NCBI RefSeq assembly: GCF_002234675.1
Contig: NC_019859.2
Coordinates: 3,255,240-3,319,239, forward strand
Reading direction: 5' to 3'
Length of the DNA stretch: 64,000 nt
Origin: Oryzias latipes
Taxonomy: Eukaryota; Chordata; Actinopteri; Beloniformes; Adrianichthyidae
This document shows positions 8,036-60,929 of the stretch, in pieces; position 1 is the stretch's first letter; the number at the start of each line of letters is the position of its first letter. Made by a program: the position numbers and the translations under genes. The notes beneath the pieces are model-generated. The model made no database searches and was not told where the DNA came from. It saw only the letters and a program-made list of their open reading frames with translations.

Positions 8036-9673
8036 TGTCACGGTGGTGGGGTGGCTCGAGAGCCGGTAGGACCCAGTAGCAGAGGCGGAGGCACGAGGAT
8101 CAGAGTCTAATGGATTTAATAAACAAAAACCAAACACAAAGCGCTGCAGAGCAGAATTTCTGAACAAACAAAACTTACTTGACGTGGCGAGGAACATGAA
8201 ACATGGAACGTGGCAAGAGACAGCATGATATGAAACACCATGACAAGACTAATGGACCAGCACAGGAGGAAGGCAGAGACAAGACTTAAATACAGACAGG
8301 GCAGACAAGACACAGGTGGACACGGTCAGGGCTGATGGGGACCAAAGGAAGTAAAACTCAAGAAACAAGACAAAACAGGACCTTTCAAAATAAAACAGGA
8401 AACAGAAAACAAGACAGAACGGCGAGGCAGGTCCGGAGAAGGGCCGGGCAGTCCGACGAGGCAGGTCCGGAGAAGGGCCGGGCGGTCCGGCGAGGCAGGT
8501 CCGGAGGACGGCCGGGGGGCCGTGGAGTCAGGCGTGGAGTCAGGCGTGGAGTCAGGCGTGGAGTCAGGCTTGGAGTCAGGCTTGGAGTCAGGCTTGGAGT
8601 CATCGGGCCAGCAGTCGGCCGGCGGGTCGGGCCAGCAGTCGGCCGGCGGGTCGGGCCAGCAGTCGAGCTCCGGCGGGTTGGGCCAGCAGTCGAGCTCCGG
8701 CGGGTCGGGCCAGCAGTCGAGCTCTGGCGGGTCGGGCATGCCCTTGGAAGCGGGGATTGGTTGGGGTTCAGGCGGAACCCCCCTGGGAGCCGGGACGGGT
8801 CGGGGTGCAGGCGGCACCTCCCTGGGAGCCGGGGCGGGTCGGGGGGCAGGCGGCACCCCCCTGGGATCCGGGGCGGGTCGGGGTGGAGGCGGCACCCCCC
8901 TGGGATCCGGGACGGGTCGGGGTGCAGGCGGCTCCCAGTGTAGTCCGGGCGGCTCCCACTCCAGGGAGATGAGGGAAACTGGGCCTGATCGAAAATCCAA
9001 AAAGTTCTAGTCCTTTCTGCTTCCCGGCAGTAGGCAGTAGGTTCCAGACGCAAAGCACAAAGCGCTGCAGAGCAGGTTTTCAGAACAAAACAAAACTTAC
9101 TTGACGTGGCGAGGAACATGAAACGAGAACGTGGCGAGGAACATGGAACTAGACAGCATGAACACCATAACAGAGGTATGGACCAGCACAGGAGGAAGGC
9201 AGAGACAAGACTTAAATACAGACAGGGCAGACAAGACACAGGTGGACACGGTCAGGGCTGATGGGGACCAAAGGAAATATATGTAAGTTTTTGTTCTATG
9301 AACCTGCATACTGTCATGGTTTTGAGTTTTTTGTCTTGTTTTTCGTCTTAGTTCTTGTTCTGTCTTGTTTTCTGTTTCCTGTTTTATTTTGAAAGGTCCT
9401 GTCTTGTCTTGTTTCTTGAGTTTTACTTCCTTTGGTCCCCATCAGCCCTGACCGTGTCCACCTGTGTCTTGTCTGCCCTGTCTGTATTTAAGTCTTGTCT
9501 CTGCCTTCCTCCTGTGCTGGTCCATACCTCTGTTATGGTGTTCATGCTGTCTAGTTCCATGTTCCTCGCCACGTTCTCGTTTCATGTTCCTCGCCACGTC
9601 AATCTCTGATCCGTGTGCCTCCGCTTCTGCTTCTGGGTCCAACCGGCTCTCGAGTCATCCCACCACCGTGACA
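8036..9673. mobile_element. Cluster of gypsy-like LTR fossils around proline-rich minisatellites
   Basis: Three related LTR-type segments lie here: one in minus orientation at 8036 to about 8420, a second partial minus copy at about 9040-9290, and a plus-orientation copy at 9312-9673. The last begins TGTCATGG and ends CCGTGACA, the TG...CA ends of an LTR, and looks like a solo LTR of 362 bp. Between the first two lies sequence encoding tandem proline-rich repeats on the minus strand (separate entry). The elements are broken and incomplete; no pol domain is visible. The arms are still easy to align by eye, suggesting moderate age. Confidence 0.6.
8423..8935 (-). repeat. Compound minisatellite encoding proline-rich repeats
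   Basis: Four different tandem arrays follow one another. About three units of a roughly 34-base GGTCCGGAGAAGGGCCGGG repeat lie at 8423-8510. About seven units of the 12-base GGAGTCAGGCGT repeat lie at 8522-8605. Five units of a 24-27 base CAGCAGTCGGCCGGCGGGTC type repeat lie at 8610-8735. Four or five units of about 39 bases with GGAGCCGGGACGGGTCGGGG lie at 8770-8930. Read on the minus strand they give repeated PDPPELDCW, PDSTPDST and PRPAPDPRG units. The arrays sit inside the LTR fossil cluster and probably derive from its internal region. Confidence 0.65.
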
Positions 9674-10239: not shown

Positions 10240-11118
10240 CTATTTTAAGAAGGTGTTGAGATAATAATTTGATAATAATTTGTGCTCTTTGCATACAGGT
10301 CTGGTGCAGTGGGAACACCAGCTTTTGACTTTTCTGTCTTTGGAAACTGGGCAGTTTGCACACCTCCTTCGGTCCACCTGCCTGATGCTCTCTTCAGGCT
10401 TTTTTAACCCACATCTTCCCATGGCCTCGGCACGCTTTTGAAGTTAGGGCGTGGCCTCAATGCGCCTCTTCAGATGTGGCACGACAAGCTCTTTGCCCAG
10501 CTCCTTGATAAAACACTGACGTGGTTTGCTGACACCACCCAAATAGCCAGGGTGTTACGCAGTGAAGCTTGTGTAGGCATTGATGGTGGCAACATCCAGC
10601 ATGTTGTACCAGAGAACCATGTCCACCTCCGTGTTCTCCACTGACATGAATAGTTTCTAACCATTTGATCCATTGTGTCCACAACTCCTTTTGTTTTGTT
10701 ATAGTACTGGATCACTGCTGGTTTCTTCTTCAGACTGTTGTGATTCACTGCTTTGTCACCATGCATGGTGCTCGAGAGGCACAAAAACAAAATATTTGGG
10801 ACATATGTGGATGAATAAATGATCAAATGTGATTTATTTCAAAGTCATTTTGTGTAAATACTGAGCCATATAATAAATGATATTGAAAACGAATATGGGT
10901 CATTTTGTACCCATGTTGAGCATTAAAGTGGTAGTGATACAAAAACAGTTTTATTCAAAAAGTAAGAAATGAGAAAATACAATAATCATGTGTGATGGTC
11001 TAAAACAAGTTAATTGAGGAAAACCTTGACAACTGAATGAAAGTATTAATTTATCGCAAAGATATCAAAAATAAAAACTCAGCTGGGTCACTTTTGACCC
11101 ATGTTGTGCATATTAGGG
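10240..11118 (-). mobile_element. piggyBac transposon remnant inserted at TTAA into the plakin-repeat exon
   Basis: Minus-strand frames show KKKPAVIQYYNKTKGVVDTMDQMVRNYSC (around 10640-10740) and then MGRCGLKKPEE with a C-x2-C, C-x2-C cysteine cluster (RCANCPV, WCSHCTRPVCKEH) down to 10240. These are the C-terminal catalytic part and zinc-binding tail of a piggyBac (PGBD-type) transposase, separated by frameshifts. The 5' terminal repeat is at 11118, reading CCCTAATATGCACAACATGG on the minus strand, next to TTAA at 11119-11122. Copy B of the host gene has an uninterrupted TTAA at the same codon position, so this is a genuine insertion site. The far end with its own TTAA was not found. Confidence 0.8.
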
Positions 11119-11122
11119 TTAA

Positions 11123-11285
11123 GATTGTGCTGCTTTTCGTCAACACCTGTATGCATCCGGCCAAACTCTGAAATGGGAATTTTGCCTTTTTTGTACTCCT
11201 GCAGATCGTACTCTGTTATCTTTCCCTCTTTAATGGCGTCTTTAATGGGATACTAGTTTCCACTCTTGCCATCTTGCAGCTCAGA
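11123..11285 (-). pseudogene. Copy A plakin-repeat region beyond the stop codon
   Basis: Directly after the TAA at 11286 the same frame continues to encode recognisable plakin linker sequence: LQDGKSGN, a TAG, then YPIKDAIKEGKITEYDLQEY and KKGKIPISEF. This matches copy B and the plectin/desmoplakin DRKSGRQYDI region. Two in-frame stops separate it from the kinase, and the piggyBac remnant cuts it off at 11122. It shows that the ancestral protein carried at least one full plakin repeat domain after the kinase. Confidence 0.75.
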
Positions 11286-14007
11286 TTACAAATCATCATA
11301 CAGTGCCACGCAGTGTATATCCCAGCCCGTACTCGCTATCTCATGCATCAAATCCTCATCAATCAAGCCCTTCTTATAGGCTTCATAGACAGAAATTTCT
11401 TTATCCGTATCTGGATCAATGATGACGACAAGTGGAGACTTTTTGGTCTCATGGCTCTCTGAAATGAAATCTCCCTCTCTTTGCTCCTCTTGCAGAGGCT
11501 CACAGATGGTACTGTCTTGCTCGTGGATCTTGTCTTTTTCATCCAAAATAGGATTATGTAATTCCTCCAGAGAGTCACTGTCCTGAAAGAAAAAAAATGT
11601 GTGAAGAAATGAGAAGAAAGAATGAAATAACCACTCATTCACTTTCAAATTAGGTGTTTTTAAACATTTAAAACATTTTTTCTTACCAGCTGTTTTAGAA
11701 CCTCGTAGACCTCATGAATAATTTTGGATTTATGCTTTGAGTACACGTTCTCCACCATGGGAGTAATCTCTAAAGAATTTTACATATTGAAGGAGAAGAG
11801 ATGAAAACAGAATGAATACTGGAACATTCCAGTTGCTTTTTGCAGAGAAGAACATGATTTTGAGATTACTTTGAATATGTCTGTAATTAAAATGATCTCA
11901 TACCTTCAAATGTTGGCCTCTGGGTTGGATCACCATTCCAGCACTTCTGCATTAGATCGAGCAGATCGCTCATTCCTGCTTTATCCGTCTTTGATAAGTC
12001 ATCAAGAGGGGGTCTTTGACCTTTAGCGATACACTTGCGCAAACGTGATGGATGAGCAGCTTTGTTTTGAAAACACAGAAGGAGAGAAGAAAATTAGTCT
12101 ATTTTACAGATAAAAGGACATCAGATCTTTCGTTTTCTCTTTAATTTCAAGAAATGTAATCTTAATAATAAAACTGATGGAACTTACTGGGGAAAGGTTC
12201 TTCTCCAGAAAGGATGGCCCAGAGAAAAATGGCAAAACTGATGAAAACAGAAAAATATACTTGTGACAACAATTGGAGTGAAGTCAACTTGTTTCAAGAA
12301 GACATTAAAAAATCTGTTTGAAAGTAATTTACATGATTTAAATATTATTATGTTTTCATATTATAAAATAACAATATTTAGTCATATTTAAAAAAGGATA
12401 AATAGCAAAAAAGTTATTGAAAAACAGATTTATTTAGCTTTGTTTACCTGTACACGTCAAAAGAGCGAACAGGTTTGTAGTTGATGTCATAAGCTTCAGG
12501 TGGCATGTACTTTACTGTGCCTGAAATCTCTGTTTCTTCTTCATCGCTGGGGCAACAGGTGGCAGACATTGTGCACAGACCAAAATCTGCCAGCTAAAGA
12601 GTAGCAGGCAAATAAAACTATTACATTTCAGCGTTAGAAATAAGGGAAAAAAATGGCAAGTAAACTTGGTTGTCCTCCCCAATTTTTGGTTGCCCTTCGA
12701 TACCAATATTTAACAGCAACGAAACCTACTCAGATGTCAGTACTTACATCTTTATTTCTTCTATACATCTAATATCAACTGCCTGTTATGATGGACAATT
12801 AAAAAACTCTGAAAAAAACAAACATTTTACTAAATATTGAAGCATCTGGTTACACAAAGTATTGCCAAAAACTTGAAACTAATATCTTTATATCTAGTAT
12901 CTTTACACAGATTTAAATATATTGGTTCTTTTTTTTCTTTGGTTTTGATAATTGTTGCTTAAAGAATATAAAATACAAATACTGTTGTAAAAATTTAGAA
13001 TATCATATCAATCCCATGGAAAAAGGTTTTTTTCAGTTCATGTCAGTCTGTTATGAGTGAAAGTTATAGTGTTTTATGAATGTGTTTTAAATCTTTTTGC
13101 GTGTTTTTGGAGACCTCTTGAAAAGTGCACTTGTAGAAACAGAAAGGATTGGCTAATATGCACGCACTTCGTTTGTCAGCGGAAAGAATTTGCTGCATAC
13201 GTCTCAATTCAGAGGTTACCAAAAACTAACCCTTGAAACTTGAAAAATAGTCGAAAAATACCAAAATGTTGAATAAAAGGCCAGGTTGTCACACGGACAA
13301 CCATCAGGTTCATTTGGGTTGTCCTCCGTGAAATCTGGTTGTCTCGGACAACCGGATAACCGCTTATTTCGAACGCTGCATTTATACTATTAACCCACTA
13401 TTAATTAAATGCATTTTACCTTGGCATGAAGGTCTTCAGACAGCATTACATTCTGCATTTTTAGGTCGCGGTGCAAGATACCCATTGAATGGAGGAATCG
13501 CATTCCTGAAGCCACTTCCAGAATCAGACGGCAGGCCAGAGAAAATGGAGGAGGACCTCGCAAGTTTTTGCAAAGATCCATAATAGATCCTCTGGTCATG
13601 AACTCCATGACCATTCCTTTTTGCTTGACTTTTTCATTTGGAGGGATTCCCTTATACATCCCATAAACCCTCAGGACAAAGTTGCAGGAGAACACTTTCT
13701 GAAATGTAGCCTCCTTTAACAGTGATTCCTCCACACTGCAACAGAAAAACATGTTCTCAGTCATTCACCTAGTAGACTGGGGAGTAGATGATGCAGCATA
13801 CAATTAGTGAAAATCATAAAACGTGTTCATTTACTTAACATCATGCAGTATCTTAATGGCCACATCATGTCCCATTTTGCGATGCCTGGCCTTGTACACA
13901 CTGCCAAACCCTCCTTTGTCAATCTCTGTCCAGTCCAATAAGGAGTCATCATCAAACTTGTTGATCTGGTTGTTTTCTCCCATCATATTTCTGAAGAGTG
14001 TCAGGAC
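11286..14007 (-). CDS. RIP-like protein kinase fused to a plakin-type linker repeat (copy A), 399 aa from the first in-exon ATG
   Basis: Seven exons join in frame: 14007-13835, 13735-13420, 12593-12448, 12237-12188, 12059-11904, 11769-11687, 11582-11286. From ATG at 13986 they give 399 residues with no break. The kinase domain spans about residues 19-280: KGGFGSVYK (25-32, first loop glycine replaced by Asp23), VAIK Lys45, gatekeeper region MVMEFM (92-97), HRD Asp141, DFG Asp159, PPE 187-189 and DVYSFAIFLW. These resemble RIPK-family kinases, and all catalytic residues are present. After helix EVYEVLKQL (about 301) comes an acidic linker, then VVIIDPDTDKEISVYEAYKK (about 353-372), which closely matches the linker repeat before the last plakin repeat domain of plectin and desmoplakin. 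TAA at 11286 stops it early; homology continues in frame to 11123, then piggyBac. Exon 1 opens in phase 0 with an acceptor, so coding may start further upstream. Confidence 0.8.
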
Positions 14008-14975: not shown

Positions 14976-15069
14976 ACACTCTATGTGGAGACAGTCAATG
15001 TTAACCTGTGGTTCAGTATTTACAAAAGGATGAAGCATTTACCCAAATGTTAAACAGATTAAACAACAG

Positions 15070-15720
15070 GTTCCAAAAATGATTCTGTGTTTAATGCCAC
15101 CGCCGTGTTCAGAGTTTAAGCAAATGTGTCTCAGATTTAGCTCATTAGTGGCAGCATCTGCAGATGAACTGCATCACTGTCACAGAGACATGGTAAACTG
15201 TGGATTCCTCTCTAAATTCTGTTCAGATGACAAATGTAGGCTCCATAGATGTCTGCGATTTCAAGAATACAGGACATTTTTAAAGGTAGTGACTGCTTTT
15301 AGCGGTGGTGTGACTGCACTTACTGCATTTTATGGCACTGTTTGAGGACAGGAGTGTTTTGTTACCAAGCCTTTTGATTTGTTTTTGACCTGTTTCGACA
15401 GAGTTATCTAAAGTCATTGGTTGATGCTCGTGTATGTAATAGACATTTTCAGAGAATGAAGAGAAAATCTACCAACATTTATTCTTATTTTAAGAAAAGA
15501 AGTACAGCAGAAGGAGTGAAAGAGATGGTAGGGCAGCAACAGAGGTATAGTGAGAAGGAGGAAGATGAGACAGAGCAGCATGATCCACAGCCTGTATTAA
15601 TGACAGAATATAATGAGGAAGACAAACATGAGACGGCATCAGACGAAGGACAGTCAAAGAAGAAAGGCAGAACTCATCAAAATCAGGGTCTCGACCTGTA
15701 TATCAGTAGGCATTTAAGTT
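15070..15720 (+). pseudogene. Duplicated segment with a hAT-like transposase N-terminal relic
   Basis: A plus-strand frame at 15456-15728 begins MKRKSTNIYSYFKKRS and continues with an acidic, glutamine-rich stretch. A basic MKRK...FFK/YFK start followed by an acidic linker is common in fish hAT/ZMYM1-like transposase-derived proteins; the zinc finger and catalytic core are absent. The same segment occurs at 23640-23787 plus 25703-26490 in the copy B half, interrupted there by L1. Homology is at nucleotide level on both sides of the frame, so the segment belongs to the local duplication. The gene label is weak. Confidence 0.45.
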
Positions 15721-15942
15721 TCTGTTAGTTTTCTAAAGGTTGTTTTACTACGTTTAGTAAAGTGAATTTTGAAAATACAGCTCTTGGCTTTTGTGTGCCA
15801 CCTCAAGATATAAGGCGACACTGCCTTCCATGAAACAGGTAATGAAAACAGTTTTAAATTATATATTAGTTTGATCAGGTGGTAAATGAAGGTAAAAGTA
15901 AACTGGAGCATCAAATTTGCCAATTTGATGGTATGGCCTCAC

Positions 15943-16020
15943 CGTAGCTTCCTCCATTTCAGCCAAGTCGGTGTTTTTTCCTATCTTGGTGGTCAGTATT
16001 TCCAGGCGGTGACTTGAGAC
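15943..16020 (-). other. Candidate upstream coding exon of the kinase-plakin gene (78 bp)
   Basis: On the minus strand a pyrimidine-rich tract ending CCTGCAG precedes base 16020, and GTGAGG follows base 15943. The 78 bases between them are open and encode VSSHRLEILTTKIGKNTDLA followed by EMEEAT. The exon starts and ends in phase 0, the same phase as kinase exon 1 at 14007, so splicing would read ...EEAT-VLTLFRNMMGEN. This would give the kinase an N-terminal helical extension. It is only a candidate: I cannot find the next exon upstream. Confidence 0.4.
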
Positions 16021-16439
16021 CTGCAGGGTGAGGACAAGTGGGGGGGGCAACTTTTAAGATCACTACTGTTAATCCAGAAAATGTTCTTTTTGCAAAAACT
16101 TCAGAGAAAGTTCACTCTCCAACATAAAAAATTGCCCTAAACTGCATGATTTTTTTCTTTTGGCCAAAATCTGATGATCCAGATCAGTTTACAAAATCTG
16201 ACAAACCAGAGAATACATTTCATAGCAGAGAAATCCTTCACATTCTGAATACTTCTACGCCAGTGAAGGTTTGCTGATGACTCTTGCATTAATGTGAAGC
16301 TTTGCTAAAGTTTAAAACTTAAACATCCTGATGGTTATGACATTTTATCTGTAAAAGACCCCAAAAACCAATCCAATCTAATCAAAAATCAATGTATTTA
16401 ATTAATAAAGGACGTATGTTGTTTGCTGTACTTTGCAAT

Positions 16440-19539: not shown

Positions 19540-21481
19540 TTCAAGATTCAAGATTCAAGATATTTATTTGTCATTGTCAGTGGAACAATGAAAATGCGTC
19601 TGGAGCCTCAACAACAGCCACTCAGTTCAGTTCACCCAAAAAAAAACCCATAAATAAATAATAACCAAAGTGCAGCATCAGTACGAAAGGAAACACAGCA
19701 AGGACTTAACATGAAAAAAAATAGATAATAAATAGGACATTAAATAAGACATTCAGTGTGCACAAGATTTTAAGTTAGTAGCAGTAATGCAAGACCAGTT
19801 TTCACAGAGTTCGCAGTGTGGTCAGATAAGGAGGGGGGGGGGGCAGTAGCTAGGAGGGACTGTTCAGCAGCCGCGCAGCCTGTGGATAAAGGCTGTTGCT
19901 CAGTCTGGTTGTTTTGGCCTTAATAGACCTGTACCTCCTTCCTGAGGGGAGCAGATGGAAGATGGGCTGGATGGTGCGGGTCACGCAGGATGTTCTGGAC
20001 TCTCTTCAGACAGCGGGTGGTGTAGAGACTACTCATCTCTGGGAGAGTGGTCCCAATGATTTTCCCAGCTGTTTTCACCACCCGTTGGAGTCTCTGCTGA
20101 TCTGCCTTTGTGCAGCTATGAAACCACACTAAGAAACTAAATGTCATTACACTGCTGATGGCACAGTTGTAGAAGTTCACCATCAGTTGCCTGGAGATTT
20201 TTGCCGCCTTTAGTTTCCTCAGGTAGTATAAGCGTTGTTGAGCCTTCCCCACTACTGAAGCAGTGTGTGGACCCCATGATAGGTCCTCCGTTATTGTGAC
20301 CCCCAGAAGTTTAAAACTGGTCACCCTATCCACCATCTCCGTGCCAATGGAAAGTGGCTGATGGTTTATACTGCGACTTCGGAAGTCAACAATAATTTCC
20401 TTGGTCTTTGTGATGTTTAGTATCAGGTTGTTATTGTTGCACCATGACGCCAAGTGTTGCACTTCTTTCCTGTAGTCCGTTTCATTATTGTCGTTGATGA
20501 GTCCAAGCACTGTAGTGTCGTCAGCAAATTTAACGATGAGGTTGGATGAAGATGATGAGCAGCAGTCATGAGTATACAGAGAGTAGAGTAGAGGGCTCAG
20601 CACACACCCTTGGGGGGCCCCTGTGTTGATTAAAACAGTGGATGAAGTGTACTTTCCTACTCTAACCCTCTGTTTTCTGTTGGTTAGGAAATCGGTAGTC
20701 CAGTTGCACAGTGCGGTGCTGAGTCCAAGGTGGTGTAGCTTGGCTCGAGGCTTGAATGGCCGAATCACATTAAAAGCTGAACTGTAGTCCACGAAAAGAA
20801 GCCGTGCATAGGTGTTCTTATGCTCCAGATGCTCCACTAGCCTATGGAGCACAATGGCGATGGCATCCTCAGTTGACCTGTTCTTCTTGTAAGCGAAATG
20901 ATATGTATCCAGTGAAGGTGGTATTGCAGCCTTGATGTGTTTTATGACCAGTTTTTCCAGGCACTTTGCAGGGATGGGAGTGAGCGCCACGGGTCTGTAG
21001 TCATTTAGACATGTTACCTTTGATTGCTTAGGAATGGGGGTTATTGTAGCAGATTTGAAGCTGGTGGGGACCCATGCTGTGGAGAGCGACAAGTTGAAGA
21101 TGGTGGTAAAGATGTCAGTCAGCTCCTCTGCACAGTCCTTCAGCACCCGGCCCAGTACACCATCAGGCCCGGCTGCTTACATGGTGTTGATGTTTTTCAA
21201 AACACCGCTCACCTTGTGTGTGCTCAGGACTGGGGGGGTGTCGGTAGAGTGAAGGGGGGGGTAGGATCTTTATTTTCTCTGGCAAAACAGGCATAGAAGA
21301 GGTTTAAGTCCTCAGCCAGTGTAGGACAGCCCACTGGGGGTGGTGGTGATTTCCTCTTATAGTCCGTAATTGCCCTAATGCCCTCCCAGACCTGTCTGGG
21401 GTTTGTGGCGGAGTCAAAACTGACTTCAATGCGCCTTTTGTATTGTTGCTTTGCAGTGTTGATGCCTTTCCGTAAAGCAGT
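19540..21481 (-). mobile_element. Rex1-like LINE with a nearly continuous reverse transcriptase
   Basis: The minus strand carries a 408-codon frame (21146-19920). It contains NDYRPVALTPIPAKCLEKLV, HFAYKKNRSTEDA, LFVDYSSAFNVI, GAPQGCVLSPLLYSLYTHDC, catalytic VKFADDTTVLG and TKTKEIIVDFRS. These are the ordered motifs of a Jockey-superfamily (Rex1-like) reverse transcriptase with both aspartates. Upstream coding continues to about 21480 (WEGIRAITDYK, then AGPDGVLGRVLKDCAEEL) with one TAA near 21178. A frame change near 19960 shifts the C-terminal LLPSGRR block out of frame. The 3' end carries an ATTCAAG tandem at 19545-19561. The endonuclease is missing. It is probably young but defective. Confidence 0.85.
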
Positions 21482-21813: not shown

Positions 21814-23366
21814 TTAACCCTGATCAGTAAACATATCTAGACTCAAGAATACTTGAATGTGTTGCTGCTTGTTGTGTAGCCAGTTCCTTTGGAGGAGGTG
21901 GGCAGCATCGGTAACCCAGACTTTGGGTCTTTTCTGCAGCGATTCAGAGCTTGTTTGTAGGTTAATCTTCTCCTGTGTTAGTGGGTCTAAGACAGGGGTG
22001 TCCAAATCCAGGCCTCAAGGGCCGGCAACCCGCTGGTTTTCCAGAAATGCTGCCTCATCTGCTGTTGATTACCTGGATCAGGTGTGTTTAGCCAATTAGG
22101 AGCTTCAAAGGCAGGTTGATTGGAAAACATATAGGACACCGGCCCTTGAGGCCTGGAATTGGACACCCCTGTTCTAAGATATCCTTTTCATACGTCGTCT
22201 CGGCTTGCAGTTCCCTCATCATTGTGTGGTCAATCATTCTTAACTTAAAGGCATCTGTGACGCTCATCCTGCTGCCTGTTTTGGGATTGACCAGCCCTCC
22301 GGTCAAGAGCTGGACCACCATGTAGCGGCGTGCAGTCTCCTTAAGCATCCAGCCGTTCTGAGCTGCTTCACCCGCAGACAAAATCTTTCTGGTTGTGGGG
22401 TCTTCCACTTCACTAACAGCCTTTTCTGCATTGAGCAGCAGCTGGAGTTGACTTTCCTCAATGAGACATCTGTTTGCTGCCTTGTGAACTGTGTATCTGT
22501 CCTTGTTCTGGATGTCAATGATGCCACCTGTGGCTGCCTGAGCCTCCAGCAGCCTTTGGGCAGTGGTGCGGTCTATCAGTCTGCGCTGGGTGGCATTATG
22601 TATTGTAAAGCAGGTGCAAGTATTAGTATCCATCACTCCTGCAATTGGATATGTTTCCTCAGTTTTGGAGCGGTCTAAACGGGCTGAATTTACTGGAGTG
22701 GCAGACTTTGGGAGGACTGAATTAAGCTGCTGCTGCTTTTTGTCAACACCTGCAAGCATCAGGGCAAACTCTGAAATGGGAATTTTGCCTTTTTTGTACT
22801 GTTGCAGATCGTACTCTGTTATCTTTCCCTCTTTAATGGCGTCTTTAATTGGGATACTGTTTTCCACTCTTGCGATCTTGCAGCACAGATGTCTCACCAT
22901 CAGGTCCCACGGAGGTTATTTCCTTCCAGTCGGACTCTAACTCCAGCAGATTCAAGTACTGCGAATGATCAATGACGCCCTGCGTGTAGGCTTCATGGGA
23001 AGACATTTCTTTACCCGTTTCTGGATTGAAGATGGTGATTATGGTAGACGTGTAAGTGTCATCGGTCTCTGAAGTGAAATTTCCCTCTCTTTGCTCCTCT
23101 TGCAGAGGCTCACAGATGGTACTGTCTTGCTCGTGGATCTTGTATTTTCATCCAAAATAGGATTATGTGATGCCTCCAGAGAGTCACTGTCCTGAAAGAA
23201 AAAAAAATGTGAAAAGAAATAATAAAAAAACCCACTCATTCACTTTCAAACTAGGTATTTTTATCCAAAACATTTTTTCTTACCAGCTGTTTTAGAACCT
23301 CGTACACCTCATGAATAATTTTGGGTTTATGCTTTGAGTACACGTTCTCGACCATGGGAGTAATCT
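21814..23366 (-). pseudogene. Plakin repeat domain pseudogene, copy B of the kinase-plakin gene
   Basis: Two exons match copy A: 23366-23284 (83 bp, same length as A exon 6) and 23191 to a stop at 21814. The long exon encodes NPETGKEMSSHEAYTQGVID, DRKSGKQY, IKDAIKEGKITEYDLQQYKK and ISEFALMLAGV. It continues with AGVMDTNTCTCFTIHNATQ, RLLEAQAATGGIIDIQNKD, LLLNAEKAVSEVEDP and VVQLLTGGLVNPKTGSRMSV. This follows, repeat by repeat, the linker and last plakin repeat domain of plectin/desmoplakin, whose repeats bind intermediate filaments. Breaks: one missing base at about 23148 against copy A, one extra base at about 22853 and a hAT MITE at 21993-22171. All kinase exons are absent. Confidence 0.8.
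21985..22179. mobile_element. hAT MITE inside the plakin exon
   Basis: The element 21993-22171 (179 bp) begins CAGGGGTGTCCAAATCCAGG and ends with the inverted form GGAATTGGACACCCCTG, with further pairing through CCTCAAGGGCCGG. It is flanked by GTCTAAGA (21985-21992) and TTCTAAGA (22172-22179), an 8-bp target duplication with one mismatch. CAGGGG termini and 8-bp duplications define hAT elements. Removing it restores the plakin frame from ...KDIL into DPLTQEKINL. Confidence 0.85.
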
Positions 23367-23787: not shown

Positions 23788-25702
23788 TATATTTCTGACC
23801 CACTGAACTCTCTGCCCATACTATTGGACATTTTGGATCAATTCGGATCATTTTCAGGTTATAAGGTTAATTACCAGAAAAGTGAGAGCCAGAGAGATGC
23901 CTCATTCAATAGCCCCCTTTAAACAAGTGGAAACTGGCTTTAAATATTTAGGTATATTTATATCTTCCTCTACTTCCGAAATGAAAAAAACGCAACTTTG
24001 AATCCCTGCTGGAGAGCATTGGGGAAGACTTTGATTGTTGGTCAGTTTTACCTCTGTCACTGATTGGGCGGGTGAATCATCAAAATGACCTTCCTTCCTA
24101 AATTCTTGTATCTCTTCCAGCACATCCCTATACTTATTAACAAAGCTTTTTTCGACAAACTGGAAAAACGGATTTCTCACTTCCTATGGAGCGGGAAAAC
24201 ACCTAGAGTCCGCAAATCTGTATTATAGTCACCTAAGAACAAAGGAGGTCTTGGCCTCCCCAACTTTAGACAATATTACTGGGCAGCAAATATACAGAAG
24301 CTCCTATACTGGATGAATGATAATGATACTTCCCTGCCTGTCTGGGTGCAAATGGAGAAGGGATCTGGTCCCTACTCACTGTCCTCAGTTCTTTGCTCGC
24401 AATTTCCATTGACATTATCTCTTGTTAGAGACAATATCATTGTAAAGGAAACAGTCACCAACTGGAGACAATTCAGAAAATATTTCGGTCTGCATGGTCC
24501 TTCAATACTACCCCCCCTACTAAATAATTGTAATTTCGCTTCCTCCGTCACTGATGCGGTTTTTAAAATTTGGCATAGCAAAGGACTTAAAAAAGTCAAG
24601 GACCTATATACCAACAATATCTTCTCAACCTTTGCTAATCTCTCAGCCAGATATAACTTACCTAACTCACATTTTTTTCCGTTTCCTCCAGGCAAGAAAT
24701 TTCGTGAAGAAACAATTCCCTCATTACCCTAACCACCCCCCCAAAACTTTTTTAGATACCTTGCTGGAGGTGGACCCACAGCAAAAGCACTGTATTTCAG
24801 TTCTAACTGGAATGATTGACACAATAGTCAGTAGGTCAATTTCCTTCGTGAAAACCACCTGGGAAAGTGAATTACATACGACTTTATCTGAAGAACAATG
24901 GGATACAGCCTTAAAGTTAATACATTTGTCCTCTATATGTGCCCGACATGCCTTGATCCAGTTCAAAGTATTTTACAGGATACATTACACAAATGCAAAA
25001 CTATCCAGAATCTACACGTCTGTCTCTGATAAGTGCAACCGTTGTGGACACTCGCCAGCAAACCATACCCATATGTTTTGGGCCTGTTCTAAATTAAGAC
25101 GTTTCCGGACACATGTTTTTAACACTCTCAGCCAGGCATATGGAACAAGGCTACTGCCTAATCCAGTGTCCGCTATCTTTGGTTTTGCGGTTGATATGAA
25201 TCTCTCTGGACCTTGCACACGCGCTCTAGCATTCACTACCTTGTTGGCCAGACGATTGATTCTGCTTAGATGGAAGCTCTCTGACCCCCCCTCACATGAC
25301 TAAAGGAGGTGAAACTTGAAAAGCTGAGGTTCTCACTCAAAGGATCTCTAAGTAAGTTTAAAGAGACATGGCATCAATTTTTATCACTGCTAGATACACT
25401 TACATTACTCCCAGAGGCAGAAACTGATTGACCCCCTTTATTTTTTTGTGTGTGTGTGTGTGTGCGTTCTTGTTTATGTGCACATACGTAGAGACTGGAT
25501 CTCTATTATGTCCTGTGTGTATGTGTATGTGTGCGAGTGTGTATATGCATGACCTGGAAATGGGAATGTTCTGTGTTCGGGGGGGGGAGGGATATGGAGA
25601 AACACAGCTGTATTGTCGTTTAAACACGTTTACCTTTTTGAAAACATGCTCTGTATGTTAATATGTTCTAAAAACTCGATTAAAAAAGTTGGAATAGACT
25701 CC
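23788..25702 (+). mobile_element. L1-like LINE, ORF2 C-terminal part, inserted into the duplicated segment
   Basis: The plus strand encodes, in pieces, FSGYKVNYQKSE, FKYLGIFISSS, FLPKFLYLFQHIP, ISHFLWSGKTPRVR and GGLGLPNFRQYYWAANIQKL. A long frame then runs to 25303 with IHLSSICARHALIQFKVFYR and the C-terminal zinc knuckle CNRCGHSPANHTHMFWAC. This is the thumb and C-terminal domain of an L1/Tx1 ORF2. Several frameshifts and a stop near 24226 break it. The 3' UTR contains a GT microsatellite at 25447-25545. Flanks rejoin the segment seen uninterrupted at 15200-15225, which places the insertion edges to within about 15 bases. Confidence 0.85.
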
Positions 25703-27886: not shown

Positions 27887-30800
27887 TTAGCTGCCAAAGC
27901 CGAAGATGCCCTTGATGTAGCCCGTCAGGCCGCCCTTGCCCTTCTGCTCCACCTTGTCGTCCAGCGGCGGGAAAGTCACGTGGTTGAGAGCCAGGTCAAA
28001 GAACAGAGGCTTGCAGGGGATTGGCTGGAAGTCTGGCGGGAAGGGGACCAGGTTGGGATGTTTGCCGACCAGAGTCGAGTCGATGCGGAAAGTTTCCAGA
28101 TGCTCGCAGAGCGGCTGAAGAGGAAGAGGAGGAGCGAGAATGAGAGTGATGAAGAAAAAGGAGTTTAACATGACTGAAAAAGAAGGATCCATAGCAGCTG
28201 AATTTATGTTCATGTTGAGACTATAGAACTTAATGGGCCACACATCCACCACCTCTGTGAGATTAGTTTATAAACATTATTTCCTATGCATCCTCATTTT
28301 CCACCATTATGTTGTGTGATATATTAGACTCAACGAGTGACTAAAGTAATAACGAATCTTTTTTGTGTGTAAATTATTAACTAAAGAGGCTCTAAACTAT
28401 TTTGTCTTTACTCAACTTTGGCAGCATGTGCCCCTCCCACATTAGCACTATAGTTCAAGGAGCTCATATTTCAGCATCGTGAACATCCAGGAATGGGAAC
28501 AGGGATATAGACATTTATTTTTCTCGTGTTATCTGGATCGTTAAACATGTTAATTTTGATTAAAGTCATTTGTACATAAAGTGTTGAATAAAAAAGGATC
28601 TTGCCTATTTTTAATACCCGTTTTTTGGTTTAGACACGCCTCACACCAAGCATCTTCCTTCCTCCATGGTTTCAAAGAGCTGACTACTGAATAGGACTGG
28701 GTTCGTAAAATTGATTATTCGATCTGAACCGATCCAAGCTTCATAAATCAATAATTGATTCATAAAAGTAGAGCTCAAGCTTTTAATGTCTTTCCTGTTC
28801 TGGTGACCTAAGGCTAAGATTTGGGGAGATCCAGCTTTGAATCAATCATGGTGTCCAACTGTAAAACAGTTTACAAAATCCAAAAGGAAGGTTCATGAAC
28901 ATTACTAATATACTCTGATACATCTAGTTTAATTTGAACAATGACGGGAATAAAACCAAAGTCTGCTAGCTTGATGCTGACGTACAATGGAATTTCCCAT
29001 AGGATGGCTAATGCTAACTCTCGGTTGACCTAAAGACATTGCTGACAAAATTTGCAGCAACATATGTTATAATTATATAAGTGTTAATTTATATACTCAC
29101 ATTATTTATATACTTATTTATATACTCACAGGCATGAATTCTCCAAACTCTTAATTTAATTTTTTTTTTTTTTACATTTTTTTTAAAGTTTTGCTGAAAT
29201 CTTTTGGAATAAAATGTAATACTATAGCGTGAGCTCCACCTAGTGGCCAAACTGAGACGCAGGTTTCACAATCTGCACATTTTTGTTGGAGCTTCTCTGA
29301 AAAACCGTTTAACACTGTGTGGTGTTCATCCATCAACCATTGGTTTAATTTTTCACTAATACATTTTACAGTATGTGAGATGTATTAGAGTAACATGAAA
29401 ACTTAAAACATTAATGTATTCCTATACAAAAATGTCTAAATGTGTAAATTTAACACCCAGCCCTACTATTGAAGGAATTCAATCCTAACTAATATCTCAG
29501 ACTACCTGGTTTCTCCTGACTGTTTCCTCTTACCGTGTTGTCTTTCTGCTGATGAGGAACAGAAACTTCTGCAGTCTCGTCCTTGTCTGAAACACATTTC
29601 ATCGTGACTTCAGATAAATCTGTGGATGTTAAATTTAGTGCATTTCTTCCATGGAGGGGCTCTCACCTAAAATGGCAGCAGCTTGAAGTGAATATTTCTC
29701 AGCGTTCACCTCAGCGATGAGCTCCTGAACGTCAGGAAGATCCTGCAGACGGTTCAGTGAGGAAGAGCACAAACGGAACGGTTTGGTTTTTAAAACATGG
29801 AGCTGCTAAAACTTCACGGGTTGAAACAAACCTTGAGGCTGCTGTTAAGACTCTTGGCTTTGGACTGGACCTCCTTGGCGTACTTCAGCACCCTCTCATA
29901 CAGAACCAGCGCCTCGCTCCACTTCTTCACCAGGACATAAGACTGAGCTATAAAGAAACACCTGCCAGCGGGAAAAAGAGAAAAGTACATTTTTATTCTG
30001 ATTAATGAAGCAGGACAGACGTTGCTGTGAAATCCATTTGCTGGATTATTTATCAGGTGGAAAAGAGACGCAGCTCTGTTAATATGGACAGCAGTGTGTC
30101 CAATTAAGTTTAAGGGCACAATATAAAAAAACAGAGCAGAGAAGGTGACCTGTAAGCTTTGTAGATCAGCGTCTTGAGGGACACCTCTTTCTGGAAGGCG
30201 TGGTCGTCCTCCAAACCCGGCAGGGTGGACAGTTCAGCCAGACTCTGAGAAGAGGAGGAGGATGTGAGGACAAACTCTTATTTGTTAAACATGAGAAAAA
30301 ATCAACATCTTCTCGTTCTGCCTCATCTTCTTCCTCACAGGACATTTAAGGGCTGAACTCTACCTGCAGGATGATGTCATAGAGGCGGATCAGGTCCTGA
30401 GGCCGGGGGCCCCTCTTGCTGTCGTCGGCCCCCGTCTCCTTCAGCTGAACCTGCAGGGTGTGAGCCATGCTCTCGTTCCTCTTCACCAGCGTGCACAGCT
30501 TGATGTAGGTCAGATAGCTGCCGCAGAAAAACCAAACAGCAGGTCAAACCTGAGAGCTTCTCATGTCTACAAGGAACACATCAGCCTCGGTTTCATTCTG
30601 AGTTTGCTGCTTCTGTCTGTTTGAGGAAACATCTTCACGGTTGGTTTACTAAAACCAATGTCAAAGCATGAACTTCCTCTGCGACTAGACTAAAACAAAA
30701 GTCTCTATATTTTTTATATTCTTACCTGTGCAGGAACTGAAGGTTGGAAACTTTCCCTCCATCGCTGTCTGAGCTCCTTTCTCGCAGTTTCTACAAAATT

Positions 30801-42023: not shown

Positions 42024-51750
<9,727 letters not shown>

Positions 51751-57230: not shown

Positions 57231-57400
57231 ATCGAGGAAGAAAACACAAGTTCCGCCATTCCGCCTGCACGCGCGTGCGAGCCGCCTCTGCTTGAGTCTC
57301 CACGGTTCTCATGGTGTGTTTAAGTTCAGCGTCAGCGCTCAGACTTCTTCAATCTGAGTCAGGATCGTTAATTTGCGACAAACCAGACAGTAAAACAAAC

Positions 57401-58009
57401 ATGGCAGAAGTAGCTCCAGCTCCCGCCGCCGCTCCGGCCAAAGCCCCCAAGAAGAAGACTTCCAAGCCGAAGAAGGCCGGTCCCAGCCTCAGCGAGCTGA
57501 TCGTCAAATCAGTGGCCGCTTCCAAGGAGCGCAGCGGCGTGTCTGCCGCCGCCCTGAAGAAGGCTCTGGCGGCCGGGGGCTACGATGTGGACAAAAACAA
57601 AGCCCGCGTCAACACCGCCATCAAGAGCCTGCTGACCAAGGGGACTCTGGTCCACACCAAGGGCACCGGCGCTGCCGGCTCCTTCAAGGTGAGCAAGACG
57701 ACCGAAAGCACGAAGCCTGCAGCTAAGAAAGCCGCTCCTAAAGCCAAGAAGCCCGCCGCCAAGAAACCCGCAGCGGCCAAGAAGCCCAAGGCAGCAGCCA
57801 AGAAGCCCGCAGCTGCTAAGAAGTCTCCCAAGAAGGTCAAGAAGCCCGCAGCAGCGCCCAAGAAAGCAGCCATGACCCCCAAGAAGGCCACCAAGAGCCC
57901 CAAAAAGAGCCCCAAGAAGGTGGTGAAGAAAGCCCCCGCAGCCAAGAAAGCTCCCGCTAAGAAGGCAGCCAAGCCCAAAGTCAAGAAGACAGCAGCCAAG
58001 AAGAAGTGA
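57401..58009 (+). CDS. Linker histone H1, 202 aa
   Basis: Single exon. The start at 57401 ([20 protein letters not shown]) is preferred over the in-frame upstream ATG at 57311, because histone H1 begins with this acetylated alanine/proline-rich tail. The globular winged-helix domain (about residues 28-100) contains [40 protein letters not shown] and [16 protein letters not shown]. The C-terminal half is lysine, alanine and proline repeats ([11 protein letters not shown] motifs), the usual linker-DNA-binding tail with CDK-type SPKK sites. An AAACACA box lies near 57243. A 3' stem-loop follows the stop, so the gene is replication-dependent. It shares its strand with H4 and H2B downstream. Confidence 0.97.
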
Positions 58010-58040
58010 AGAAACATCCTCAGAATTCTGTAGAACCAAA

Positions 58041-58056
58041 GGCTCTTCTAAGAGCC
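58041..58056 (+). terminator. Histone H1 mRNA 3' stem-loop
   Basis: GGCTCTTCTAAGAGCC, a 6-bp stem with a 4-base loop followed by AACA, 31 bases after the H1 stop. It is the SLBP binding site for 3' processing without a poly(A) tail. Confidence 0.9.
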
Positions 58057-58059
58057 AAC

Positions 58060-59291
<1,232 letters not shown>

Positions 59292-59330
59292 AACTAACAT
59301 TCCGCTGTTTGCGACTTAAAGGCCCTTTTA

Positions 59331-59346
59331 AGGGCCATCAATTATT
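59331..59346 (+). terminator. Histone H4 mRNA 3' stem-loop
   Basis: GGCCCTTTTAAGGGCC, a 6-bp stem with a TTTA loop, 40 bases after the stop. A purine-rich GAAGAACAGAA at about 59351-59361 could be the U7 snRNA binding element. Confidence 0.9.
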
Positions 59347-59364
59347 CTGAAGAACAGAATTTTC

Positions 59365-60060
59365 TTTGCATCAACATTATCAGAAGTATGTAAAGTGGGC
59401 AGCGTCGACTAGTATTACAGCTTGATCAGTATTACATTCAGAAGGTAGCAAAAAATGTTGAGCAAATTCCTTTCTAGGAAAATCTGGAGTATTGTAAAAG
59501 TTAATTGGGGCAATCAACATATTTTTCAATATATATTAAGTAAAATTAGCAAACCCCGCATATACTATGTTGGACTCAAGTTAAGAAACTGTTTTCCAAA
59601 TGTTCCAGTTTCTATGACTACAGTCTGTACATCACAATTTTATTAACTTGGAGAATAAAAGGTTTATCATAACAATAAAAAGATTACCCATCGTTCATCA
59701 AAAGAGGATTCAGAGTTAAACCTTCAATAAAGAAAGTTGCACAGCAGCTCCTCTAACCTATGTGTCTGAGCGTCATAAGTGAAATAAGCTGAGCATGTCT
59801 GTGATGTCTGAAATGTCATTGCTATTTTTCCCCCTTCTTTTTGGGGAATCAGTTCCAGTTTTGAGGTCCAATAAGCCTCCATTTAAGAGGTCAGTCCAAT
59901 ACTACATGGACAAACCATTTAAAAAGATATATATTTTAAAAATCAATATTTTTTTCCCCCCCGTGATTTTATAATCACTGTAAACTCGCGCGATTAACAC
60001 ATTTGATTAAAAACTCCTGTGTTAGTGAAACATGGAGACCTCTGTATCACGCTGTAACAG
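59365..60060. other. H4-H2B spacer
   Basis: AT-rich spacer with no gene recognised. A short plus-strand frame at 59455-59646 has no coding features. Confidence 0.5.
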
Positions 60061-60073
60061 CATAACAGTTCAG

Positions 60074-60126
60074 CCAATCATAAATGGGAAACGACACAGT
60101 ATAATTTACACACAGTTTGTATATAA
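60074..60126 (+). promoter_or_regulatory. Histone H2B promoter: CCAAT and TATA boxes
   Basis: CCAAT at 60074-60078 and TATATAA at 60120-60126 lie 107 and 61 bases upstream of the H2B ATG, the spacing expected of a replication-dependent histone promoter with a leader of about 25-30 bases. Confidence 0.75.
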
Positions 60127-60171
60127 TCAGCCTCTGTTCTCGTCGTGGTCATATTCTCGTTCATAGTCTGA

Positions 60172-60555
<384 letters not shown>

Positions 60556-60584
60556 ACGGACCGATGTGATCCACACAAACCAAC

Positions 60585-60600
60585 GGCTCTTTTCAGAGCC
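60585..60600 (+). terminator. Histone H2B mRNA 3' stem-loop
   Basis: GGCTCTTTTCAGAGCC followed by ACACA, 30 bases after the stop. It has the standard 6-bp stem and 4-base loop. GAAGAGTTTGG at about 60615 is a possible U7 binding element. Confidence 0.92.
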
Positions 60601-60929
60601 ACACACCTGATCTGAAGAGTTTGGTATTTCCTTCTGTTAAACTGACTGCTAAATGAATTTAGCCAATATACACAATGACAAATAATAAAAATGTAATTTA
60701 CACTATCAAGACCTTAAGACATGGTGCAATTAGGTGCTACTGTTGTTTCATGCACATAGATGAGCTTCACATGAACAAATCAAATGAAACTATATCTCTC
60801 CATAATAAACTGTAGAACAGGTATAATTCAGTGCTGTGTTGGTTTCCCCATTTCATTGTACACGAACAACTATAGGAGTAATGAGCCTAATAATTGCATA
60901 CTGAAGTTCTGCGAATTTTTATTTTTTTA

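Follow-up and report, generated by a model that had tools for sequence, protein, structure and literature searches.

The closest described systems to the locus reported here are envoplakin (EVPL) and the RIPK3-like kinases of teleosts. According to the available text of PMC4730296, srp68 and evpl adjoin aanat in tetrapods, an arrangement also present in fish, ddx5 and evpl adjoin the aanat1 copies of fish, and medaka aanat1a lies on chromosome 1. In the periplakin linker, the deletion-mapped motif DWEEI is critical for targeting to intermediate filaments (PMC7035337, available portion), and the filament contact of envoplakin is ascribed to a basic groove of its repeat domain (PMC4782060, available portion). 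No RIPK-plakin chimera was named among the matches listed for literature on plakin-kinase fusions, medaka RIPK3 and medaka envoplakin, in agreement with the preliminary description of this DNA, in which no described protein of this kind was known. Words beginning with 'plakin' had zero occurrences in the main text, as far as it was available, of two papers on RIPK evolution (PMC12119088 and PMC9573974).

The window, the whole stretch of 64,000 nucleotides of Oryzias latipes DNA analysed here (NC_019859.2, positions 3,255,240 to 3,319,239), lies on chromosome 1 between SRP68 and an intact envoplakin gene, in a four-unit array of RIPK3-like kinase exons and envoplakin pieces, a reading held, together with the history proposed below, with good confidence. 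The array represents a real and apparently undescribed family of chimeric genes that arose at the envoplakin locus in medaka fishes. It shows a new domain pairing caught at birth, in which a cell-death-type kinase was captured by a cytolinker gene.

The envoplakin locus contains an array of four kinase units

In the genome map of the array (region C1:3140001-3319239), the order on the minus strand, 5' to 3', was SRP68, unit 1, unit 2, unit 3, unit 4 and intact envoplakin (Table 1), with units 1 and 2 contained in the window. Unit 4 and the intact envoplakin gene were found approximately 90 kb and 110 kb from unit 2, respectively. The window neighbours SRP68 and DDX5/DDX17 agree with the srp68-evpl-ddx5 synteny published in the available text of PMC4730296. 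An envoplakin paralogue candidate was present on C8. The units share with envoplakin the SRP68-side locus, homology to the linker and repeat domain (unit 1) and, in unit 4 and O. javanicus, a first spectrin repeat of plakin type. In contrast to envoplakin, they have no coiled-coil rod and no plakin domain past the first repeat, and a kinase stands in their place.

Table 1. Coordinates of the features of the array and its neighbours (window positions unless marked C1)
Feature	Position	Strand	Remarks
Transposon remnant	10240..11122	-	Interrupts envoplakin exon at TTAA (11122); transposase PF13843 at 10838-10473
Decayed remainder of envoplakin linker	11091..11252	-	Same frame as unit 2 exon 7, past stops
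Unit 2 (copy A) exon 7	11286..11582	-	Brief kinase-side start followed by end of envoplakin rod and first linker part; ends at TAA
Unit 2 kinase exon 6	11687..11769	-	
Unit 2 kinase exon 5	11904..12059	-	
Unit 2 kinase exon 4	12188..12237	-	
Unit 2 kinase exon 3	12448..12593	-	DFG, PPE
Unit 2 kinase exon 2	13420..13735	-	HRD
Unit 2 kinase exon 1	13835..14007	-	Starts at splice acceptor; first ATG within (MMGENNQ)
Homologue of intron after unit 4 spectrin exon 4	14984..15329	-	83% identity
Decayed homologue of unit 4 region with spectrin exon 2	15827..16283	-	67% identity, E 2.4e-50
Unit 1 envoplakin C-terminus end	21849..22016	-	After insertion of ~150 bases
Unit 1 exon 7	22172..23191	-	Kinase-side start, envoplakin linker, plakin repeat domain; disrupted by frameshifts
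Unit 1 (copy B) kinase exon 6	23284..23366	-	
SRP68 3' part	27887..30513	-	Conserved neighbour of envoplakin
DDX5/DDX17-type helicase exons	43745-48827	-	Belongs to conserved aanat1 synteny block
Unit 3	C1: spectrin match 3213745-3213329; kinase 3211813-3210320	-	
Unit 4	C1: spectrin exons 3190118 to ~3183450; kinase 3181176-3176839	-	
Unit 4 scattered envoplakin C-terminal pieces	C1: 3175566-3173160	-	
Intact envoplakin 3' exon	C1: spectrin matches upstream, 3159641-3159271		Open frame 1138 aa

Unit 1 is a frameshifted remnant, a decayed second copy of exons 6-7 situated 11.6 kb from unit 2, and no match to its kinase exons 1-5 was found. It nevertheless preserves the full extent of the linker and plakin repeat domain (23366-21849), and its repeat domain had envoplakin as the best solved-structure match (4qmd, 1.6e-43). 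Units 3 and 4 end shortly past the kinase and neither contains a linker join; they probably never had one, loss being possible. Spectrin exons 1-2 of unit 3 were not found in the array region, and, compared with unit 4, its spectrin exon 4 lacks 10 bases, which shifts the frame. Among the four units, an open spectrin-kinase frame is therefore confined to unit 4.

Unit 2 encodes a RIPK-type kinase

Unit 2 consists of seven minus-strand exons (14007-11286) bounded by GT-AG splice sites in compatible phases, and the reading frame is kept throughout. The spliced exons comprise 406 codons followed by TAA, and the product from the first ATG in exon 1 is 399 aa long; the in-frame join, intron phases and product that had been proposed were all recovered at the same positions. 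The kinase is of RIPK type and looks intact, with the four motifs that had been listed for it (VAIK, HRD, DFG and PPE) all confirmed. In Pfam, this single product matched the kinase model (PF07714, 9.1e-46) and, in the same frame, one Plectin repeat (PF00681, 7.3e-08; 32.6 bits, cut-off 20.5), and the central proposal, an in-frame fusion between a RIPK-type kinase and a plakin-type repeat, was borne out.

Compared with solved structures, the unit 2 kinase was closest to RIPK3 (2.2e-51), followed by RIPK4 (5.3e-44) and RIPK1 (5.8e-44). The first glycine of its P-loop is replaced by Asp. The kinase is predicted to be catalytically active. Only the kinase and Plectin models scored above the curated Pfam cut-offs, and no C-terminal CARD, death domain or ankyrins were found in unit 2; RHIM was covered by the general Pfam scan alone. 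The NCBIfam scan gave weak matches to prokaryotic kinase models, all below cut-offs. Identity of the kinase domain to the unit 2 product was 57-61% for the Oryzias RIPK3-like kinases P0009-P0011 and 44% for the teleost RIPK3-like kinase P0015. P0015 has a CARD (PF00619), and P0009-P0011 align to that tail; in contrast, unit 2 has no such tail.

The frame of exon 1, which opens at a splice acceptor, is closed by a stop lying three bases 5' of the exon, so that the first usable start within the seven exons is the internal ATG. A 26-codon open, splice-flanked stretch at 16020-15943 was considered as the true first exon of unit 2 and rejected. Its peptide gave no solved-structure match at E 10 and no Pfam match at E 1, and at the DNA level the stretch is homologous to spectrin exon 2 of unit 4, in a decayed state and translated in a different frame. 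The exon 2 stretch and its flanks gave 111 matches, whereas 40 shuffles averaged 67.6 and reached 87 at most. In the DNA comparison no match to unit 4 spectrin exons 3-4 was found upstream of unit 2. An N-terminal plakin domain of spectrin repeats is absent from unit 2, with no protein-level spectrin-exon match in the window and the decayed exon 2 detected at the DNA level only. Judged from these upstream homologues, unit 2 appears formerly to have had the spectrin-kinase arrangement too.

The plakin tail of unit 2 is a truncated envoplakin linker

Homology of exon 7 to the large 3' exon of envoplakin in a relative (P0121) has a sharp onset at 'ILDEKDKIHE', inside the rod end, and in the DNA alignment the kinase-envoplakin join lies directly after CATAATCC. 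In unit 2, 43 linker residues align to the solved periplakin linker, covering positions 8-50 of its 113, compared to 104 residues (9-112) for the full envoplakin exon of P0121. The plakin tail of unit 2 is a truncated envoplakin linker, amounting to about 40% of the linker. When exon 7 of unit 2 alone was compared with solved structures, desmoplakin was best (3e-08) and envoplakin last (0.04), the exon being too short to decide between them; P0121, the locus and unit 1 make the label envoplakin probable for this tail. That the array descends from the envoplakin gene is marked by the breakpoint, the homology, the synteny with SRP68 and DDX5/17, and the intact envoplakin exon with which the array ends.

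The plakin frame of unit 2 is ended by two in-frame stops, TAA at 11286-11288 and TAG at 11253-11255. The complete linker and plakin repeat domain are not present in unit 2, and no plakin repeat domain was found downstream of its linker piece. A coiled-coil rod was likewise not found in the window, where P0121 residues 1-760 gave no match at E 1. The transposon remnant that interrupts the envoplakin exon is presumably piggyBac-like; its opposite inverted end was searched for and not found. The codons aligned to DWEEI read TGWDI in unit 2 and DWKEI in unit 1, and the repeat domain to which the available portion of PMC4782060 assigns the groove is missing from unit 2.

These findings bear on the proposal, made in the preliminary description, that the fusion would place a stress or innate-immune kinase on the intermediate-filament system. 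A functional kinase anchored to filaments through its plakin tail might be argued from the Plectin repeat, which is above the Pfam cut-off in the kinase's own reading frame, from an O. sinensis relative with both kinase and Plectin, and from unit 1, in which linker and repeat domain formerly followed. It is highly improbable for unit 2. Filament placement is unsupported there because the linker is truncated, DWEEI is lost and the repeat domain is absent, and the two stops and the transposon stand against it as well. Moreover, unit 1 is frameshifted, units 3 and 4 end before any linker, and the plakin part of the O. sinensis protein is gapped. On this comparison of motifs and domains, filament tethering by unit 2 is unlikely, and its plakin tail is a relic and not a filament anchor.

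Kinase-plakin joins and spectrin-kinase fusions occur in several Oryzias species

The same kinase-plakin join as in unit 2 was found in one gene model of O. sinensis, P0002. A kinase together with a plakin-type domain was present in at least three proteins (P0002, P0003 and P0007), all from Oryzias, among the best 120 of 586 matches. With the plakin end as query, none of 120 matches had a kinase (best 120 of 470), and a search of 175 candidates for plakin end plus kinase gave two matches, P0003, the source of the query, and P0007. No kinase-bearing plakin protein from outside Oryzias was found among the matches listed. Protein searches were clustered at 90% identity and covered the best 120 of 586 or 470 matches, so that an annotated unit 2 protein could sit inside a cluster.

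That the join is accidental, arising from two neighbouring genes or an assembly error, is exceedingly improbable. The region is rich in transposons, which would favour such an accident, but the junction lies inside a single exon and not between genes, it is common to two units here and to P0002 of another species, and four units were found. An assembly artefact was rejected, as two units and P0002 have the same join. The earlier argument against a chance join was thus strengthened by P0002 and by the decayed copy of exons 6-7 lying 11.6 kb away. It had been stated that the fusion would fail if no other fish had the two domains adjacent; P0002 has the join, although with a gapped plakin part.

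The kinase of unit 4 is that of O. latipes P0003, with 308/308 residues identical. P0003 and O. javanicus P0007 contain a plakin-type first spectrin repeat (PF23160, 5.5e-24 and 7.8e-37, respectively) spliced onto the kinase, and the junction is alignable between the two. Identity between them was 51% in the spectrin part (55/108), 38% at the junction (13/34) and 79% in the kinase (216/275). Assignment of this N-terminal repeat to envoplakin rests on the Pfam plakin model, a plectin structure match (3.9e-05), the locus and a presumed likeness to envoplakin sequence. P0003 and P0007 belong to the same clade as unit 2. They retain the N-terminal plakin part and end right after the kinase, whereas unit 2 has the opposite end. 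The spectrin-kinase fusion of unit 4, common to two species, is a more interesting product than that of unit 2. P0003 is annotated 'RIPK3-like' and is a plakin chimera, which calls for caution in annotation.

In a quick tree of the kinase, with SH-aLRT support only and 68 of 121 prepared rows, the window sequence, P0002-P0006, P0008 and P0007 formed an Oryzias clade (8/68 rows, SH-aLRT 100). This chimera clade adjoins ordinary Oryzias RIPK3-like kinases, with P0009-P0011 in its sister group. Within the clade, P0002 did not group with the window sequence despite the common linker join. The UniRef O. latipes members P0004, P0005 and P0008 had a best match to units 2-4 of no more than 91%. The array may differ between medaka strains, and incomplete gene models also reduce the match of these three. 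A separate gene model, O. melastigma P0001, contains two consecutive kinase domains, perhaps two tandem RIPK3-like genes annotated as one.

The preliminary description was right on the fusion itself. It overlooked the acceptor start of exon 1, the decayed plakin sequence beyond the stop and the second copy, and it included neither the SRP68/envoplakin locus nor the spectrin-kinase fusion of unit 4 and P0007.

Proposed history of the array and selection on its kinases

The order of events would have been as follows. An envoplakin duplicate would have gained kinase exons that replaced most of its plakin domain and rod, and the kinase would therefore have become spliced to the envoplakin 5' exons still present in unit 4 and P0007. 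Tandem multiplication of the units would have come next. A deletion in O. sinensis P0002 and in units 1 and 2 would have fused the final kinase exon, with the frame kept, to an internal point of the large 3' exon of envoplakin, and unit 2 would afterwards have lost its spectrin coding exons and the remainder of its plakin end. If expressed at all, the unit 2 product would most likely be a RIPK-type kinase of 399 aa that lacks CARD, death domain and ankyrins and has a mostly inert tail. Unit 4 would be expressed from a promoter derived from envoplakin.

The dN/dS of the kinase was 0.45 between units 2 and 3 (bootstrap 0.23-0.87), 0.79 between units 2 and 4 (bootstrap 0.46-1.63) and 0.60 between units 3 and 4 (0.35-1.21). 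Introns differed by 6-18% between units in 11 of 15 pairs, the four pairs with an intron over 600 bases being excluded. In neutral simulations, the kinase frame was still open in 56%, 30%, 16% and 9% of cases at 2, 4, 6 and 8% substitution, respectively. Constraint on the kinase between units appears weak or mixed, and unit 2 may be a recent pseudogene because its dN/dS is 0.45 against unit 3 but 0.79 against unit 4.

It is therefore a serious possibility, falling somewhat short of the expected outcome, that unit 2 makes nothing, that both window copies are pseudogene debris and that only the recent date of the duplication has kept the kinase frame open; this would be compatible with the history given above. 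The broken state of unit 1, the loss of the 5' exons and 3' end from unit 2, the replaced first P-loop glycine, the dN/dS interval against unit 4, which includes 1, and the neutral simulation, with which chance survival of the open frame is compatible, all point in this direction. In contrast, the six kinase exons of unit 2 are intact, their splice sites are good and the other catalytic motifs are kept, its dN/dS against unit 3 is below 1 with an interval that excludes 1, and members of the clade are present in three Oryzias species.

A further, rather doubtful reading is that a new gene type evolved in Oryzias, with a CARD-less RIPK3-like kinase placed behind the promoter and first spectrin repeat of envoplakin, that its intact members, unit 4 and P0007, act at plakin-containing junctions of epithelial cells, and that the array keeps yielding variants (spectrin-kinase and kinase-linker). 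It is made less probable by the frameshift in spectrin exon 4 of unit 3. The array raises the question of whether an immune kinase gained epithelial expression. Under the favoured history of capture, duplication and decay, an intact parent-type gene, intermediates and failed copies all lie within approximately 130 kb, and the array allows the successive stages in the birth and decay of a chimeric gene to be tested directly in medaka, a laboratory fish.

Other features of the window

An open frame for reverse transcriptase (PF00078) was found between units 1 and 2 (19923-21176, minus strand). Just upstream of unit 1, at 24229-25300 on the plus strand, long open stretches resemble what we take to be a retroelement. 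Open frames at 57296-60636 resemble histones H1, H4 and H2B, presumably a small histone cluster. At 8290-9660, repetitive open frames were observed with an inverted near-copy alongside.
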